Assembly: GCA_021823525.1 (NCBI GenBank)
Contig: JAKANY010000010.1
Span: 1 to 64,000 of the forward strand
DNA length: 64,000 bases
Source: Actinomycetes bacterium
Lineage (GTDB): Bacteria > Actinomycetota > Acidimicrobiia > Acidimicrobiales > RAAP-2
Reading direction: 5' to 3'
The notes beneath the pieces were generated by a model. It ran no database searches, was not told the origin of the DNA, and saw only the letters and a program-made list of their open reading frames with translations. The translations under genes and the position numbers were made by a program. This document shows, piece after piece, positions 25,487 through 42,966 of this stretch; the stretch's first letter is position 1, and each line of letters begins with the position of its first letter.

Positions 25487-25532
25487 GCCCGCGCCCGGCC
25501 GGGGCGCCCGTCACGACGCCCCGGAGCGAGCG

Positions 25533-27416
25533 CTATCCCTGGGGTCGCAGCACGGGGCGCAGCGCGTCGAGCGTCGCCGGGTTGTCGATGGTCGAGGGCA
25601 CGGGCATGTCCACGCCGTCGGCGATGGCGCGCATCGACTTTCGCAGCACCTTGCCCGAGCGGGTCTTGGGCAGCGCGTCGACGATGTCGACCTGACGCAA
25701 GCTGGCCACGGCCCCCAGCCGGTCGCGGACGAGCTGGACCAGCTCGGCGGCGACCTCGTCGTGATCGCGCGTCACGCCGCTCTTGAGGACCGCCAGGCCC
25801 CGCGGGACCTGTCCCTTGAGCGTGTCGGCCACGCCGATCACGGCACACTCGGCGACGTTGGGATGCGAGGCGATGATCTCCTCGATCTCTCCGGTGGACA
25901 GGCGGTGGCCTGCCACGTTGATGACGTCGTCCACGCGGCCCATCACGAACAGGTACCCGTCAGGATCGAAGTGCCCGCCGTCGCCAGTCAGGTAGTAGCC
26001 CGGCGTGTGGCTGAGGTACGTGTCGATGAACTTCTGGTCGTCACCCCAGACGCCACTCATGCAGCCGGGCGGTAGCGGGAGCTTGAGCAGGATCAGACCC
26101 TCGGTGTCGGGAGCCGCCGGCTCGCCCGTCTCGTTCACGATCTGGACGTTGAAGCCCGGGACCGGCACCGTCGGCGAACCCGGCTTGATCGGTAGCGCCT
26201 CGAGGCCGACCAGGTTGGCCGCGACGGGCCAACCCGTCTCAGTCTGCCACCAGTGATCGATCACGGGCACCCCCAGGTGCTCACTCGCCCACAGGTACGT
26301 CTCGGGATCCAGGCGCTCACCCGCGAGGAACAGGTAGCGGAACCTCGACAGGTCGTAGGCCGCCATGAGCTTGCCGTCGGGGTCGTCACGCTTGATCGCG
26401 CGGAATCCCGTCGGCGCCGTGAAGAGCGTCTTGACGCCCCACTCGCTGATCACGCGCCAGAACGCGCCAGCGTCGGGCGTCCCCACGGGCTTGCCCTCGT
26501 AGAGCACGGTGGTGGATCCGGCCAGGAGCGGCGCGTAGACGATGTAGGAGTGCCCCACGACCCAGCCCACGTCCGAGGCGGCCCAGAACACCTCGCCGGG
26601 AGCCGTGTCGTAGATGTTGGCCATACTCCAGTGCAGCGCCACGGCGTGCCCGCCGTTGTCGCGCACGACGCCCTTGGGGCGTCCCGTCGTCCCCGACGTG
26701 TACAGGATGTAGAGCGGATCGGTCGCGGCCACCGGCACGCACGGCGCGGGCGCCGCGGCGGCCACCACCGGCCCCCACTCGTGGTCGCGCCCCGCGACCA
26801 TCGTGGCGGGCGCCTCGGGGCGCTGGACGATCAAGCACGACGCGGGCTTGTTGGTCGCCTCGTCGATCGCCGCGTCGAGCAGCGGCTTGTACTCGATCAC
26901 CCGGTTCACCTCGATGCCACAGCTCGCTGACACGACGACCTTGGGAGCCGCGTCGTCGATACGCATGGCCAACTCGTGGGCAGCGAAGCCGCCGAAGACG
27001 ACCGAGTGGATCGCCCCGATGCGCGCGCAGGCCAGCATCGCCATCAGGGCCTCGGGGATCATGGGCATGTAGATCACGACGCGGTCGCCCCGCCCGACGC
27101 CGAGGTCGCGCAGGGCCCCCGCGGTGCGGGCCACCTCGTCGAGCAGCTCGTCGTAGGTGTACGTGCGCTTGGTCTGGGTGACCGGGCTGTCGTAGATCAG
27201 CGCCAGCTGGCTGCCCCGACCCGCCTCGACGTGGCGGTCGAGCGCGTTGTAGCAGGTGTTGAGCTCGCCGCCGGGGAACCACCGGTGCATCGGAGCGTTG
27301 GAGTCGTCGAGGACGCGATCGGGCTGGCGGTACCAGCTGATCCCGGCTGCGGCTTCGCCCCAGAACTCCTCGGGCTGCTCCACGCTCCTCCGCCACGCGT
27401 CTTGATAGGCGCCCAT
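25533..27416 (-). CDS. prpE: PrpE-type propionyl/acetyl-CoA synthetase
   Basis: A 627-residue AMP-forming short-chain acyl-CoA synthetase of the PrpE (propionyl-CoA synthetase/ACSS3) branch, which makes acyl-CoA from the free acid, ATP and CoA. Motifs: [15 protein letters not shown] (P loop), [23 protein letters not shown] region (here [14 protein letters not shown]), WWQTETGWP, and the C-terminal [10 protein letters not shown] whose Lys is the usual acetylation target. Acetate may also be used. ATG 27416 has GGGGGG three bases upstream. Isolated gene, facing the cysteine-synthase-like gene. Confidence 0.88.
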   Translation of the reverse strand: [627 protein letters not shown]

Positions 27417-38461: not shown

Positions 38462-39523
38462 CTAGCACGACGCGAACCCGGCCAGCACCTGGGCTCGCGC
38501 AGACTCCGAGAGGGGAATCGTGGGATACACGCTGAAGCGGTCCACGAGTCCCGCGAAACGCTGGTGGACGGCCGCGGCGAGCTCGGCGGGGCGCGCCCGC
38601 ACCGCCAGGGCATCGAGCAGATCGTCGGGCACCAGTGCCCCCATCGCGGCCCACTCCCCCCGACGGGCGAGGAGCGCCAGATCCCCCTGGAGCGCCTCGT
38701 GACCGACGCTTTCGAGCACGCCGCGGTAGGCCGGGGTCGAGGCGTAGAAGGCGACCTGGTCGCGCACGACCTGCTCGGCGGCGACCGGGGCGCCCGACTC
38801 GTCGGCGACGACGAAGCCCGACAGCGCGATGTCGACGTCCCCCCGGTGGCGACCCGAGCGCTCGAGACCGCGCGCCAGCGCGGGGAGCGTCACGTCGCGC
38901 AGGTACGCCGCGGTGGTGAGGGGGTGCACCAGGAGTCCGTCGGCCACCTCGCCGGCCACCTCGGTCATGCGCTCGCCCACCGCCGCCAGGTAGATCTTCG
39001 GCGGTCCGTAGGGGTGGGGCGAGGGCGAGAAGAAGGGGGTCATCAGCGTGTGCCGATAGAACTCGCCGCGGAAGTTCAGGCGGGTCCCCTCGTTCCACGC
39101 CGACCAGATGGCCCGCAGCGCTAGGACGTACTCGCGCATGCGCGCCGCCGGGCGCGACCAGGGCATCGAGTAGCGCTTCTCAATGTGGGGCTGGATCTGG
39201 CTCCCGAGGCCGAGCAGGAGGCGGCCTCCCGACAGGACCTGGACGTCGTTGGCCAGCGTGGCGGTGATCAGCGGGCTGCGCCCGAAGGCGACGACGATGC
39301 TGGTCCCCAGCGCGAGCGTGGTCGTGCGCGAGGCGGCCGTGGCCAGCATCGCCAACGGGTCGTGGCCGACCTCGGTGACCCACGCCGCCGCGTAGCCCTC
39401 GCGCTCGGCCGCGGCCATCGCCTCGTAGGACCCGGTCGGATCGAAGCCCACGTTCGTGTCGAGCAGCACGGTGGCGATCGTACCGGCCGTGCGGTCCCCC
39501 GCGGGGGCGAACGGTCCGCGCAC
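38462..39523 (-). CDS. LLM-class F420-dependent oxidoreductase (TIGR03617-like)
   Basis: A 353-residue luciferase-like monooxygenase-fold enzyme, probably using coenzyme F420 as most actinobacterial members do. LLDTNVGFDPTGSYEAM, AAWVTEVGHDPLAMLATAA, LLLGLGSQIQPHIEKRYS and PKIYLAAVGERMTEVAGEVADGLLVHP fit the MSMEG_2256-type subfamily. Substrate unknown. The GTG at 39523 is the longest start; conserved sequence begins about 18 residues later. It is divergent from pdhA across a perfect palindrome. Confidence 0.88.
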   Translation of the reverse strand: MRGPFAPAGDRTAGTIATVLLDTNVGFDPTGSYEAMAAAEREGYAAAWVTEVGHDPLAMLATAASRTTTLALGTSIVVAFGRSPLITATLANDVQVLSGGRLLLGLGSQIQPHIEKRYSMPWSRPAARMREYVLALRAIWSAWNEGTRLNFRGEFYRHTLMTPFFSPSPHPYGPPKIYLAAVGERMTEVAGEVADGLLVHPLTTAAYLRDVTLPALARGLERSGRHRGDVDIALSGFVVADESGAPVAAEQVVRDQVAFYASTPAYRGVLESVGHEALQGDLALLARRGEWAAMGALVPDDLLDALAVRARPAELAAAVHQRFAGLVDRFSVYPTIPLSESARAQVLAGFASC

Positions 39524-39524
39524 C

Positions 39525-39537
39525 AGGGGTGACCCCT
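39525..39537. promoter_or_regulatory. Palindrome between the LLM and pdh genes
   Basis: AGGGGTGACCCCT, perfect six-base arms around a central G. Its last base is the T of the TAGACT -10 of the pdh transcript, and it directly precedes the LLM start codon on the other strand: a good place for an operator. Confidence 0.45.
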
Positions 39538-39542
39538 AGACT
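39537..39542 (+). promoter_or_regulatory. -10 box of the pdhABC transcript
   Basis: TAGACT, eight bases before a GTG that opens a 17-codon ORF ending at pdhA. Confidence 0.5.
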
Positions 39543-39550
39543 TCTCGGAC

Positions 39551-39604
39551 GTGAAGCGCCCCCACGAGCCCGCCGAGCATACGACGTCTTGGGCGCAGCG
39601 ATGA
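39551..39604 (+). CDS. Candidate 17-residue leader ORF coupled to pdhA
   Basis: GTG at 39551, eight bases after TAGACT, opens the peptide VKRPHEPAEHTTSWAQR; its TGA (39602-39604) overlaps the pdhA ATG as ATGA, exactly like the coupled gene pairs elsewhere in the window. pdhA itself has no ribosome-binding site. The simplest reading is a leaderless mRNA whose first ORF delivers ribosomes to pdhA. No homology can be judged at this length. Confidence 0.5.
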   Translation: MKRPHEPAEHTTSWAQR

Positions 39605-40698
39605 GTGCCAAGCCCACCGCCCCGAGCCCCCGCACCGCTCGACCACGCACCGCGAAGTCCGGCAGCGCCGACAACGACCGCCTCGTCGGCTTCTACCGTC
39701 GGATGCTGCTCATCCGCCGCTTCGAGGAGCGCACCGCCCGCGCCTACACCCAGGCCCACATCGGGGGCTACTGCCACCTCAACCTCGGCGAGGAGGCGGC
39801 CATCGTGGGGCTGCTGTCGTCCCTCGAGCCCACCGACTATCTCTTCACCAACTACCGCGAGCACGGCTACGCGATTGACCGAGGCATCGACCCCAATCGG
39901 GTGATGGCCGAGCTCTATGGGCGCAGCGACGGGGTCTCCAAAGGTTGGGGCGGCTCGATGCACATGTTCGACACTGCCCACCGACTCCTGGGCGGATACG
40001 GCATCGTCGGGGGTCAGGTCCCCGTCGCCACGGGCGCCGCGCTGGCCATCGAGTACCGGGGTGGTCGTGAGATCGTCATGTGCACCATGGGCGACGGAAC
40101 GACCAACATCGGGGCGTTCCACGAGTCGCTGAACCTGGCCGCACTGGGGCATCTGCCGATCGTCTACGTCGTCATCAACAACCGGCTCGGCATGGGAACC
40201 ACGGTCGAGATGTCCTCGGCCGAGCCCGAGCTCTTCCGACGCGGCTCCGCTTACCGCATGGCCGCCGCCCGGGTCGACGGCCTTGATCCCGAGGCCGTTG
40301 CCGCGGCCGCCGCCATCGCGGCCGCGAGCGCCCGCGATGGCGAGCCCTACCTCCTCGAGGTCGTCAGCGAGCGCCTCCGGGGTCATTCGGTGGTGGACCC
40401 AGCCAAGTACCGCAGCGAGGCCGAGGTGGCTGAGCTGCGAGCCCACGACCCGGTCCCGGCCCTGGCCGAGCGCCTCATGCGTGAGGGCGCGCTCACCCCC
40501 GAGCAGCTCGAGCAGATCGATCGTGAGGTGCTGGCCATCGTCGAGGAGGCCGCAGCGTTCGCCGACGCCAGCCCGTCGCCCGACGTCGCCACCCTGTTCG
40601 ACTACACCTACGCATCCCCCGTGGCCAACGCCGAGGGCCGCTTGCCTGGCGACCCCCTGTTTCCGGCGGCGCCCCGACCCGAGGACGGAGACCGCTGA
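39601..40698 (+). CDS. pdhA: Pyruvate dehydrogenase E1 alpha subunit
   Basis: A 365-residue alpha subunit of a heterotetrameric 2-oxoacid dehydrogenase E1. The TPP/Mg motif is GDGTTNIGAFHESLNLAAL (GDG...N), with the phosphorylation-loop-like RGHSVVDPAKYR and an N-terminal GGYCHLNLGEEAAIVG. Pyruvate or acetoin could be the substrate; the partner E2 with one lipoyl domain and the SMHMFD motif fit both the PDH and acetoin dehydrogenase branches. ATG 39601 has no ribosome site but overlaps the leader ORF stop. It overlaps pdhB as TGATG. Confidence 0.92.
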   Translation: MSAKPTAPSPRTARPRTAKSGSADNDRLVGFYRRMLLIRRFEERTARAYTQAHIGGYCHLNLGEEAAIVGLLSSLEPTDYLFTNYREHGYAIDRGIDPNRVMAELYGRSDGVSKGWGGSMHMFDTAHRLLGGYGIVGGQVPVATGAALAIEYRGGREIVMCTMGDGTTNIGAFHESLNLAALGHLPIVYVVINNRLGMGTTVEMSSAEPELFRRGSAYRMAAARVDGLDPEAVAAAAAIAAASARDGEPYLLEVVSERLRGHSVVDPAKYRSEAEVAELRAHDPVPALAERLMREGALTPEQLEQIDREVLAIVEEAAAFADASPSPDVATLFDYTYASPVANAEGRLPGDPLFPAAPRPEDGDR

Positions 40699-41711
40699 TG
40701 GCCGTGATGACCTACCGCCAGGCCCTGCACGACACGCTGCGCGACGAGATGCTGCGCGACGAGCGGGTCTTCCTCCTGGGCGAGGAGATCGGCGTCTTCG
40801 AGGGCTCGTACAAGATCACGGCGGGTCTGCTCGAGCAGTTCGGTCCCCGGCGCGTGCGTGACACGCCCATCGCCGAGGAAGGCTTCACCGGTGCGGCGAT
40901 CGGTGCGGCGATGCTGGGACTGCGACCCGTCGTCGAGATCATGACGATCAACTTCTCCCTGCTCGCACTCGACCAGATCGTCAACCACGCCGCCAAGATC
41001 TACGGCATGTTCGGCGGGCAGGTCAGCGTGCCGCTGGTCATCCGCACGCCCGGCGGCGGCGGCCAGCAGCTCGGCGCGACACACTCTCAGAATGTGGAGC
41101 TCTACTACGCCTTCGTGCCGGGCCTCAAGGTGGTTGCGCCCTCGACACCGGCCGATGCTCGCTCCCTGCTCCAAGCCGCCATCCGTGATGACGACCCGGT
41201 GTTGTTCCTCGAGAACCTCGCCCTGTACAACACCAAGGGTGAGGTGCCCGACGACCTCGCCCCCGGCGAGATCGGCCGCGCGCGCATCACCCGGTCGGGC
41301 CACGACCTGACCCTGATTGGCTATTCGCGCACGGCCCACGTCGCGGCGCAGGTCGCCGAGCAGCTCGCGAGCTCCGAAGGCCTCAACATCGAGGTCGTCG
41401 ACCTTCGCAGCCTCCGGCCGCTGGACCGCACCACGCTGATCGAGTCGGTGCGCCGCACCCACGCCGCGGTCGTCCTCGAGGACGACTGGCTCACCTACGG
41501 AATCGGCGCCGAGGTCGCGGCCACGATCTCCGATGGCGCCTTCGACGACCTCGACGCCCCCGTGCGTCGGGTGGCGATGGCCGAGGTCCCCCTCCCGTAC
41601 GCCAAGGGACTCGAGACGGCGGCGCTGCCTTCCGTCGATGACGTCATCACGGCCGTCTACCAGACCCTCGACGCAGTGGGGCGGCGTCACCTGAAGGTGG
41701 GACATGATTGA
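40698..41711 (+). CDS. pdhB: Pyruvate dehydrogenase E1 beta subunit
   Basis: A 337-residue transketolase-like beta subunit of E1. Family motifs: FLLGEEIGVFEGSYKIT, DTPIAEEGFTGAAIGAAMLGLRP, MTINFSLLALDQIVNHAAK and the C-terminal EVVDLRSLRPLDRTTLIESV. With PdhA it decarboxylates the 2-oxoacid and transfers the acyl group to the E2 lipoyl arm. The ATG overlaps the pdhA stop (TGATG), and its end overlaps pdhC by eight bases. Confidence 0.95.
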   Translation: MAVMTYRQALHDTLRDEMLRDERVFLLGEEIGVFEGSYKITAGLLEQFGPRRVRDTPIAEEGFTGAAIGAAMLGLRPVVEIMTINFSLLALDQIVNHAAKIYGMFGGQVSVPLVIRTPGGGGQQLGATHSQNVELYYAFVPGLKVVAPSTPADARSLLQAAIRDDDPVLFLENLALYNTKGEVPDDLAPGEIGRARITRSGHDLTLIGYSRTAHVAAQVAEQLASSEGLNIEVVDLRSLRPLDRTTLIESVRRTHAAVVLEDDWLTYGIGAEVAATISDGAFDDLDAPVRRVAMAEVPLPYAKGLETAALPSVDDVITAVYQTLDAVGRRHLKVGHD

Positions 41712-42966
41712 GATCACCATGCCGCGGCTCTCCGACACCATGGAGGAGGGCACCGTCGCCACGTGGCACAAGCACCCGGGCGACCACGTGCGCGCTGGTG
41801 ACGTTCTGGTCGAGATCGAGACCGACAAGGCCGTCATGGAGTACGAGGCCTACGACTCGGGCGTCCTGTCCGAGATTCTGGTGGCCGAGGGCCAGACGGT
41901 GCCCATCGGAGCTCCGATCGCTCTCCTCGACGCGCCGAGCGCGCCCCGAACGACCGGCGCAACGCCCACCCCAGCGCCGTTGCCCGACGCCGCGCCCGGC
42001 CCGACGGCTGGTGTCCCGGCCCGGGCCGCCACGAGCCCGGTGGCCTCGCTCGAGCCGAGCGAGGCGGGCGATCGCCTCGTCGCCTCGCCACTCGTGCGGC
42101 GATTGGCGCGCGAGCACAACTTGGACCTGCGACAGGTGCACGGAACCGGCCCCGGCGGGCGCATCGTGCGCCACGATCTCACCGAGCTACTCGAGAGTCG
42201 CACCCAGATCCACGAGGCCTTCGCCGAGCTGCGCGGTCCCGCAGTGGTGGTAACCGACGAGAAGCGCGGATCCGAGGCGGTGACGATCACCAGCACGCGT
42301 CGCGTGATCGCCCGACGGATGAGCGAGAGTGCTCGCACGGTGCCCCACTTCTACGCGACCGCCGTCGCCGACGCGGGGCCGCTCGTGCGCATGCGCGCCG
42401 AGCTCAACGAGCAGCTCACCGCCGTGGGCCGACCCAAGGTCAGCGTGAACGACTTGGTGATCCGCGCCAGCGCCCTGGCGCTGCGCCAGCATCCCGAGGT
42501 CAACTGCTCGTACGTCGACGACACGGCCACCACGATCCTCGTCCACCGGCGCATCAACATCGGGGTCGCCGTCGCCTCCGAGCACGGCCTCGTCGTGCCG
42601 GTCATCACCGACGCGGACCAGCGAAGCCTCTCGGAGATCGGTGTGGAGACCCATCGCCTCCACGCCCTGGCCAACGATCGGCGCCTGACGATCGACGACA
42701 TGTCCGGCGGCACCTTCACCATCTCGAACCTCGGCATGTTCGGCGTCGAGCAGTTCACCGCGATCATCAACCCGCCCGAGGCCGCGATCCTGGCGGTGGG
42801 GGCCACCACCGCCGAGGCGGTCGTCGTCGACGGCGCCGTTCAGCCCGGCTATCGCTTGCGCTACACGCTCTCGAGCGACCACCGGGTCGTCGACGGCGCG
42901 CTGGCCGCCCAGTTCCTGCGCACGCTGACGACGCTCCTCGAGAATCCCTGGGCCCTCGCGGCCTGA
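41704..42966 (+). CDS. pdhC: Dihydrolipoamide acyltransferase (E2)
   Basis: The 420-residue E2 core enzyme. One lipoyl domain (1-78, lipoyl Lys in EIETDKAVMEY), an Ala/Pro linker, a peripheral-subunit-binding domain (about 124-160, ASPLVRRLAREHNLDLRQV) and the catalytic domain (from about 196) ending with the active-site DHRVVDG. It passes the acyl group to CoA. No dihydrolipoamide dehydrogenase follows, so E3 must come from elsewhere in the genome. A GC-rich hairpin lies just after the stop. Confidence 0.95.
   Translation: MIEITMPRLSDTMEEGTVATWHKHPGDHVRAGDVLVEIETDKAVMEYEAYDSGVLSEILVAEGQTVPIGAPIALLDAPSAPRTTGATPTPAPLPDAAPGPTAGVPARAATSPVASLEPSEAGDRLVASPLVRRLAREHNLDLRQVHGTGPGGRIVRHDLTELLESRTQIHEAFAELRGPAVVVTDEKRGSEAVTITSTRRVIARRMSESARTVPHFYATAVADAGPLVRMRAELNEQLTAVGRPKVSVNDLVIRASALALRQHPEVNCSYVDDTATTILVHRRINIGVAVASEHGLVVPVITDADQRSLSEIGVETHRLHALANDRRLTIDDMSGGTFTISNLGMFGVEQFTAIINPPEAAILAVGATTAEAVVVDGAVQPGYRLRYTLSSDHRVVDGALAAQFLRTLTTLLENPWALAA

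Follow-up and report, generated by a model that had tools for sequence, protein, structure and literature searches.

A short leader open reading frame, predicted to be leaderless or nearly so, is linked to pdhA in an acidimicrobial clade and may deliver ribosomes to it

Introduction

Mycobacteria contain 'coupled' leaderless small open reading frames (ORFs) in which RTGA links are over-represented, and one reported example keeps the linkage and not the peptide (Shell 2015, PMC4633059). In Mycobacterium tuberculosis, the AUGA overlap of uPPE2 with PPE2 works by termination-reinitiation, and the downstream gene is without a Shine-Dalgarno (SD) sequence (PMC11260477). Termination-reinitiation has also been described where neighbouring genes overlap (Nat Commun 2019, PMC6728339), and according to a 2025 review some short ORFs may serve only to deliver ribosomes (PMC12548453). 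Among the matches listed in our literature search, whose scope leaves subscription journals mostly outside, titles and abstract openings describe no such ORF at pdhA or in the Acidimicrobiia.

Here we analyzed a 17-codon ORF (the mini-ORF) in front of pdhA in a 64,000-nt stretch of contig JAKANY010000010.1 (the window). The lineage is uncultured, and congeners are deposited as Acidimicrobiaceae.

Results

Anatomy of the pdhA leader

The leader has the anatomy given to it in an initial annotation of the window. A TAGACT hexamer (39537-39542) is followed by 8 nt (39543-39550) and a GTG (39551-39553), which opens a frame of 17 sense codons; the TGA of this frame (39602-39604) overlaps the ATG of pdhA (39601-39603) to give ATGA. 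The features of the region are as follows.

39537..39542, plus strand: -10 hexamer TAGACT of the pdh promoter (CCTAGACT is identical in 4/4 clade genomes)
39551..39604, plus strand: 17-codon ORF VKRPHEPAEHTTSWAQR, including its stop, predicted from sequence and relatives to be leaderless or near-leaderless
39601..39604, plus strand: ATGA stop/start overlap of the mini-ORF with pdhA (GTGA in three relatives)
39601..40698, plus strand: pdhA, pyruvate dehydrogenase E1 alpha (PF00676; TIGR03182, 402.9 vs. a cut-off of 393.85 bits)
40698..41711, plus strand: pdhB, E1 beta (NF006667 above cut-off), overlapping the end of pdhA as TGATG
41704..42966, plus strand: dihydrolipoyl acyltransferase E2 (PF00198, PF00364, PF02817), with an 8-nt overlap with pdhB
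38462..39469, minus strand: divergent F420-dependent LLM oxidoreductase (TIGR03617 above cut-off for 38465-39469), with a putative leaderless start at 39469
39477..39482, minus strand: -10-like hexamer TACGAT of the divergent LLM gene, separated by 7 nt from the putative GTG start

For the E2 gene no NCBIfam equivalog scored above its curated cut-off. At the pdh promoter no sigma-70-type -35/-10 match was found (0 matches). The 8-nt spacing between hexamer and GTG is longer than the usual 6 nt (51 sites) or 7 nt (16 sites) of this genome, so the pdh mRNA could carry a leader of 1-2 nt, and we term the mini-ORF 'leaderless or nearly so'. A TTG at -12 is a possible alternative start of pdhA in the window.

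The LLM oxidoreductase gene and the pdh operon form a divergent pair of leaderless-type promoters (window 38462-39604), whose two -10 hexamers are separated by 54 bp. The LLM gene is probably also leaderless, and by eye the three relatives have TACCAT-N7-ATG in front of it; both hexamer-start arrangements of the pair recur in these relatives (by eye). A palindrome, AGGGGTGACCCCT, at 39525-39537 abuts the pdh -10 hexamer, with AGGGACGACCCCT or AGGGAGGACCCCT in the relatives; it is a possible operator. An imperfect palindrome lies within the mini-ORF at 39571-39600.

Start, frame and overlap are kept in the closest relatives

We surveyed 99 genomes of the genus, including that of the window, 37 of which have a close pdhA (E <= 1e-120). 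The pattern CCTAGACT-N8-GTGAAGCG (CCTAGACTN8GTGAAGCG) was present in 4 of 172 family genomes, and its reversed-pattern control in 0. The carriers are the window genome and G084, G088 and G098, whose pdhA genes are the most similar to it (84-85% identical). Around the site, G084 and G098 match contigs JAJYBR010000001.1 (L034) and JAKAUQ010000007.1 (L035), with a 400-nt stretch in common.

In all three relatives GTGAAGCG follows the conserved -10 hexamer at the same distance of 8 nt, and the TGA again overlaps the pdhA start, here as GTGA. Their mini-ORF has 20 codons rather than the 17 of the window, a difference of nine bases or three whole codons, and the overlap persists despite this difference and despite the change of the pdhA start between ATG and GTG. 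In the three relatives a single in-frame ATG, GTG or TTG, the GTG of GTGA, occurs from the promoter to the conserved core of the enzyme, and therefore the pdhA start is well fixed there; the next ATG lies at +93 or +96. Aligned in the register of the ORF start, the four genomes are invariant at 8/8 columns (GTGAAGCG) and then at 3 of the next 22, and the base preceding the GTG of the mini-ORF is C in 4/4.

The conserved linkage, as judged from these alignments of start, frame and stop/start overlap, is well supported in the four-genome clade. The initial annotation had spoken of a leaderless ORF coupled to pdhA; with start, frame and overlap kept in 4/4 the linkage stands, and at spacing 8 'leaderless' is softened to 'leaderless or near-leaderless'.

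For distant pdhA genes, 109 loci yielded 75 distinct upstream regions once repeated sequences and loci lacking the core motif had been removed. L034 and L035, which have the same sequences around the site as L137 and L138, were omitted from the 109, and L143, an unrelated stretch, was not used. Among the 75 regions, a leaderless coupled ORF at spacing 8 was absent from all but these 4; L070 and L083 have TANNNT hits at spacing 5, which we counted as chance. The device is thus specific to one small clade. Broken frames or missing overlaps in relatives, named in the initial annotation as what would tell against coupling, are encountered at distant pdhA loci (4/75 regions have the ORF) and not in the closest clade (4/4). 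By eye, a hexamer resembling TAGAAT or TAGACT lies some tens of bases upstream at several further pdhA loci of the genus. The sister-clade leaders L139-L142 carry an inverted repeat, e.g., ACACTC-N5-GAGTGT, shortly before the start codon, possibly an operator or a hairpin.

The peptide diverges and no known leader RNA was found

Over 20 codons and three pairs of relatives, the mini-ORF gave pN 0.27 and pS 0.31-0.38, and no purifying selection on its amino acids was found; the pdhA stretch in the same three relatives gave pN 0.00-0.01. In the first 8 codons, where sites are few, pN was 0.06-0.18 and pS 0.40-0.55. Only VKR is in place in all four peptides. The peptide evolves nearly neutrally, the start and end of the ORF being kept and not its product. 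The undescribed small protein envisaged in the initial annotation finds no support in these rates, and of the comparison across genomes that it proposed, start, frame and stop overlap came out conserved (4/4), and a synonymous bias over the whole ORF did not.

Rfam gave no match in 39000-40200 at E values up to 1, and the known RNAs across the window are five tRNAs only, without a riboswitch. At the pdh leader no terminator-like site was found, and no shared RNA fold was seen by eye in the first 120 nt. A riboswitch or other known RNA, a terminator and an attenuator were rejected for this leader on the lack of an Rfam family and of a terminator-like site. Of the features expected of an attenuator, neither conserved regulatory codons nor a terminator was present, nor was a conserved switchable structure seen by eye, and the peptide has diverged.

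Ribosome sites before pdhA

The strongest anti-SD pairing before the window pdhA is only -2.4 kcal/mol, when compared with -5.6 (G088), -10.7 (G084) and -6.3 kcal/mol (G098) in the relatives. In 464 kb of this genome, median anti-SD pairing is -6.4 kcal/mol for the 61 genes downstream of an NTGA junction, 72% of which reach -5 or stronger; the value is -2.9 for 67 starts of leaderless type and -3.1 kcal/mol for 150 random in-gene positions. Starts were assigned by eye at 20 further pdhA loci of the genus; 12 of these reach -5 kcal/mol or stronger, and the remaining 8 pair less strongly.

Among coupled genes the window pdhA is therefore unusual in being without an SD, and the pdhA of the three relatives is not. 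The earlier statement that pdhA has no ribosome site of its own is true of the window and does not extend to these relatives. The accompanying statement that the arrangement equals that of coupled operon genes fits the geometry, NTGA being the commonest junction distance between -20 and +20 (61 gene pairs), and not the ribosome sites, given that most of those downstream genes have an SD.

Leaderless and coupled starts across the genome

Given a leaderless RTG already in place, the arrangement would arise by chance with a probability of ~0.07 (about 7%), the product of the right frame (1/3), 17 codons free of stops (0.79) and an A directly downstream of the start codon (65/250 first genes). The open frame itself is uninformative and was rejected as evidence: 74% of neutral simulations (three relatives, no indels) stay open. 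The single-genome evidence for the mini-ORF is weak and not significant, and support beyond chance comes solely from the relatives and from recurrence elsewhere in this genome.

Recurrence was surveyed over 464 kb, made up of the window and 20 further 20-kb stretches, in which a simple codon-usage gene caller gave 426 genes, 250 of them first genes (241 where genes without an upstream neighbour are omitted). TANNNT precedes an in-frame RTG of first genes at spacing 6 in 51 cases, at 7 in 16 and at 8 in 8, a sharp enrichment at spacings 6 and 7. Spacings 0-5 and 8-30 have 0-8 sites each, with a background of ~3 per spacing; the 8 sites at spacing 8, that of the mini-ORF, do not exceed this range. 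In total, 67/250 first genes have TANNNT 6-7 nt before an in-frame RTG. A C stands right before the RTG in 30/51 sites at spacing 6, 10/16 at 7 and 5/8 at 8.

Leaderless coupled ORFs (RTG 6-9 nt past TANNNT and a stop at a gene start) numbered 10 vs. 2.9 expected (Poisson 8e-4). The expectation derives from other spacings and is slightly high, one of the control hits being a GTG inside a genuine case. Eight of the ten are of NTGA type, vs. 2.2 expected. The excess has no single peak, with 3, 2, 3 and 2 ORFs at spacings 6-9, and control spacings 11, 19 and 31 reach 3, 3 and 4; the genome-wide excess is therefore moderate evidence.

Other coupled candidates in the relatives

Five of the ten candidates besides pdhA were followed in G084, G088 and G098; those left out lie at C6 16220, C22 20418, C12 5395 and C32 window 9055. 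The gene labels, among them that of a TetR-like candidate with no orthologue in 3/3 relatives, come from reading the sequences, without a family search.

G000 contig C26, gene 34833-34393, minus strand: NUDIX-like, ORF of 17 codons in all four genomes (L178, L179-L181)
G000 contig C12, gene 40444-41079, plus strand: LysE-like, ORF of 29, 21, 23 and 23 codons (L190-L193)
G000 contig C22, gene 25491-26333, plus strand: DUF2236-like, ORF of 11 codons in all four genomes, RTGA (L194-L197)
G000 contig C29, gene 55039-54356, minus strand: response-regulator-like (L182-L185), coupling not kept in relatives

Three of the 4 testable candidates have the leaderless start and RTGA in 4/4 genomes, with diverged peptides. 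In the NUDIX-like leader ORF, CACATTTTCACTACTCTACGGACGTG is identical in 4/4 genomes and the peptide then diverges; the LysE-like leader ORF always reaches the gene start as RTGA and shows little sequence conservation. Invariance at the ORF start is less island-like in these three cases than at pdhA (6/8 vs. 7/22, 3/8 vs. 7/22 and 6/8 vs. 12/22 columns). The response-regulator-like gene has an in-frame leaderless start in the three relatives and encodes a protein of 251 codons there; small indels in this genome shift that start out of frame, and the stop of the resulting ORF overlaps another gene start as GTGA. It is as if a leaderless gene and a coupled ORF could interconvert.

One control-spacing candidate (spacing 31) was followed in the same way, and its coupled ORF was absent in 2/3 relatives; in G084 an unrelated 16-codon ORF ends about at the gene start. 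The alignment of this candidate (by eye) suggests an in-frame leaderless start instead.

Discussion

We propose that the mini-ORF is probably a ribosome landing pad, on which leaderless loading is followed by termination-reinitiation onto pdhA. The TAGACT hexamer would start the pdh mRNA at GTG 39551 or 1-2 nt before it. Ribosomes would load on the 5'-terminal GTG without a Shine-Dalgarno sequence, translate 17 codons up to the TGA and terminate there; that ribosome, or only its 30S subunit, would then step back to the overlapping ATG and reinitiate on pdhA. The relay would continue down the operon, to pdhB via TGATG and to the E2 gene via the 8-nt overlap. Start, frame and stop of the mini-ORF would matter, and its peptide would not. 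Such a delivery role is likely, and in it we infer the transcription start, translation, reinitiation and the dependence of pdhA alike. It is proposed because 4/4 of the closest pdhA loci share the hexamer, its distance of 8 nt to GTGAAGCG, and RTGA, and because leaderless coupled ORFs recur in this genome (10 vs. 2.9), with three other cases conserved in 4/4. The island of invariant columns at the ORF start (8/8, then 3/22), the many leaderless-type starts and NTGA junctions of this genome, and the mycobacterial precedents also speak for it. The device setting pdh translation that the initial annotation had offered as its second option draws support, as far as we infer function from conservation, from the retention of start, frame and overlap in all clade members (4/4).

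Several observations speak against delivery. The spacing of 8 is off the 6-7 optimum, and SD-like sequences precede the pdhA of the relatives, which could therefore initiate on its own there. An open frame in the three relatives is expected anyway, the genome-wide excess is spread over several spacings, one of the 4 testable candidates was not kept, the ORF start is less of an island in the three that were, and even the control-spacing candidate has an ORF ending about at the gene start in G084. The strongest rival builds on the SD-like sequences. In a bacterium that translates any mRNA starting with RTG, the promoter would merely happen to start there, and the unavoidable ORF would be selected only to end at pdhA without disturbing it, while pdhA mainly initiates by itself. 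The SD-like sequences (-5.6 to -10.7 kcal/mol) and the unconstrained peptide agree with such a by-product, and yet the window pdhA is without an SD (-2.4 kcal/mol), and at pdhA and three other genes it is RTGA, not merely an upstream stop, that has been kept; we regard a by-product as unlikely. The conserved GTGAAGCG could instead be promoter or operator sequence, which leads to the simpler proposal that the frame is open by chance in a GC-rich leader, with promoter or operator bases conserved and a plain pdhA leader of 50-59 nt. The ~7% obtained for a single genome, the uninformative openness and the coupled ORFs found at control spacings all fit this proposal. Against it, RTGA has survived a 9-nt length difference and the ATG/GTG switch, and the genome shows an overall excess and three further conserved cases, which makes chance quite improbable.

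Two further explanations give the peptide itself a role. A sensing leader peptide, acting by attenuation or stalling, would tune pdh to a metabolite or an amino acid, and the first 8 codons do have fewer amino-acid than silent changes (few sites, three relatives). The peptide is unconserved overall, however, with only VKR in place in all four; no terminator-like site was found, nor any Rfam family (39000-40200, E values up to 1), and we consider sensing very improbable. A functional small protein of the pdh operon could claim the conserved VKR start and the presence of the ORF in 4 genomes, but pN (0.27) comes near pS (0.31-0.38) and the length varies between 17 and 20 codons, so that we give this idea hardly any credence.

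Beyond pdhA, we suggest only tentatively that landing-pad ORFs are standard in this lineage for operons whose first gene does not begin the mRNA, that leaderless loading spares a ribosome-binding site, and that such ORFs interconvert with leaderless genes by frameshift. With ribosome delivery as the preferred reading, coupled leaderless ORFs, described in mycobacteria, would also occur in another actinobacterial lineage and serve an operon of central metabolism, and the genome comparison indicates that what is kept is the linkage, not the peptide. The window pdhA, which has the ORF and is without an SD, would be a clean test of whether leaderless loading supplies a downstream gene. For annotators, these cases are a warning that conservation of position alone does not make such ORFs small proteins.

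When compared with the class described for mycobacteria (Shell 2015, PMC4633059), (i) the mini-ORF, at 17 or 20 codons, lies within the range of 5-50 aa; (ii) its TGA lies inside the RTG of the next gene (ATGA here, GTGA in the relatives); and (iii) the linkage is kept, the peptide has diverged, and such links are over-represented in the genome. An RTG at the transcript start, which defines that class, may correspond here to the GTG that follows a -10 hexamer at spacing 8 in 4/4 genomes, against an optimum of 6-7. Unlike the cases reported there, the mini-ORF belongs to another actinobacterial lineage, precedes pdhA, has a -10 spacing of 8 and is known from its sequence. It resembles uPPE2-PPE2 (PMC11260477) in being a short out-of-frame upstream ORF with an AUGA overlap and a downstream gene without an SD; in contrast, uPPE2 is under B12 riboswitch control and has its own SD, to judge from the 'no SD' variant in that report, and no riboswitch was found here. 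With the pairs of the 2019 study (PMC6728339) it shares the stop-start overlap of -4 nt, and with the delivery ORFs of the 2025 review (PMC12548453) a short length and a role that may consist in delivery alone. It would differ from both in that ribosomes would reach the delivering ORF by the leaderless route.
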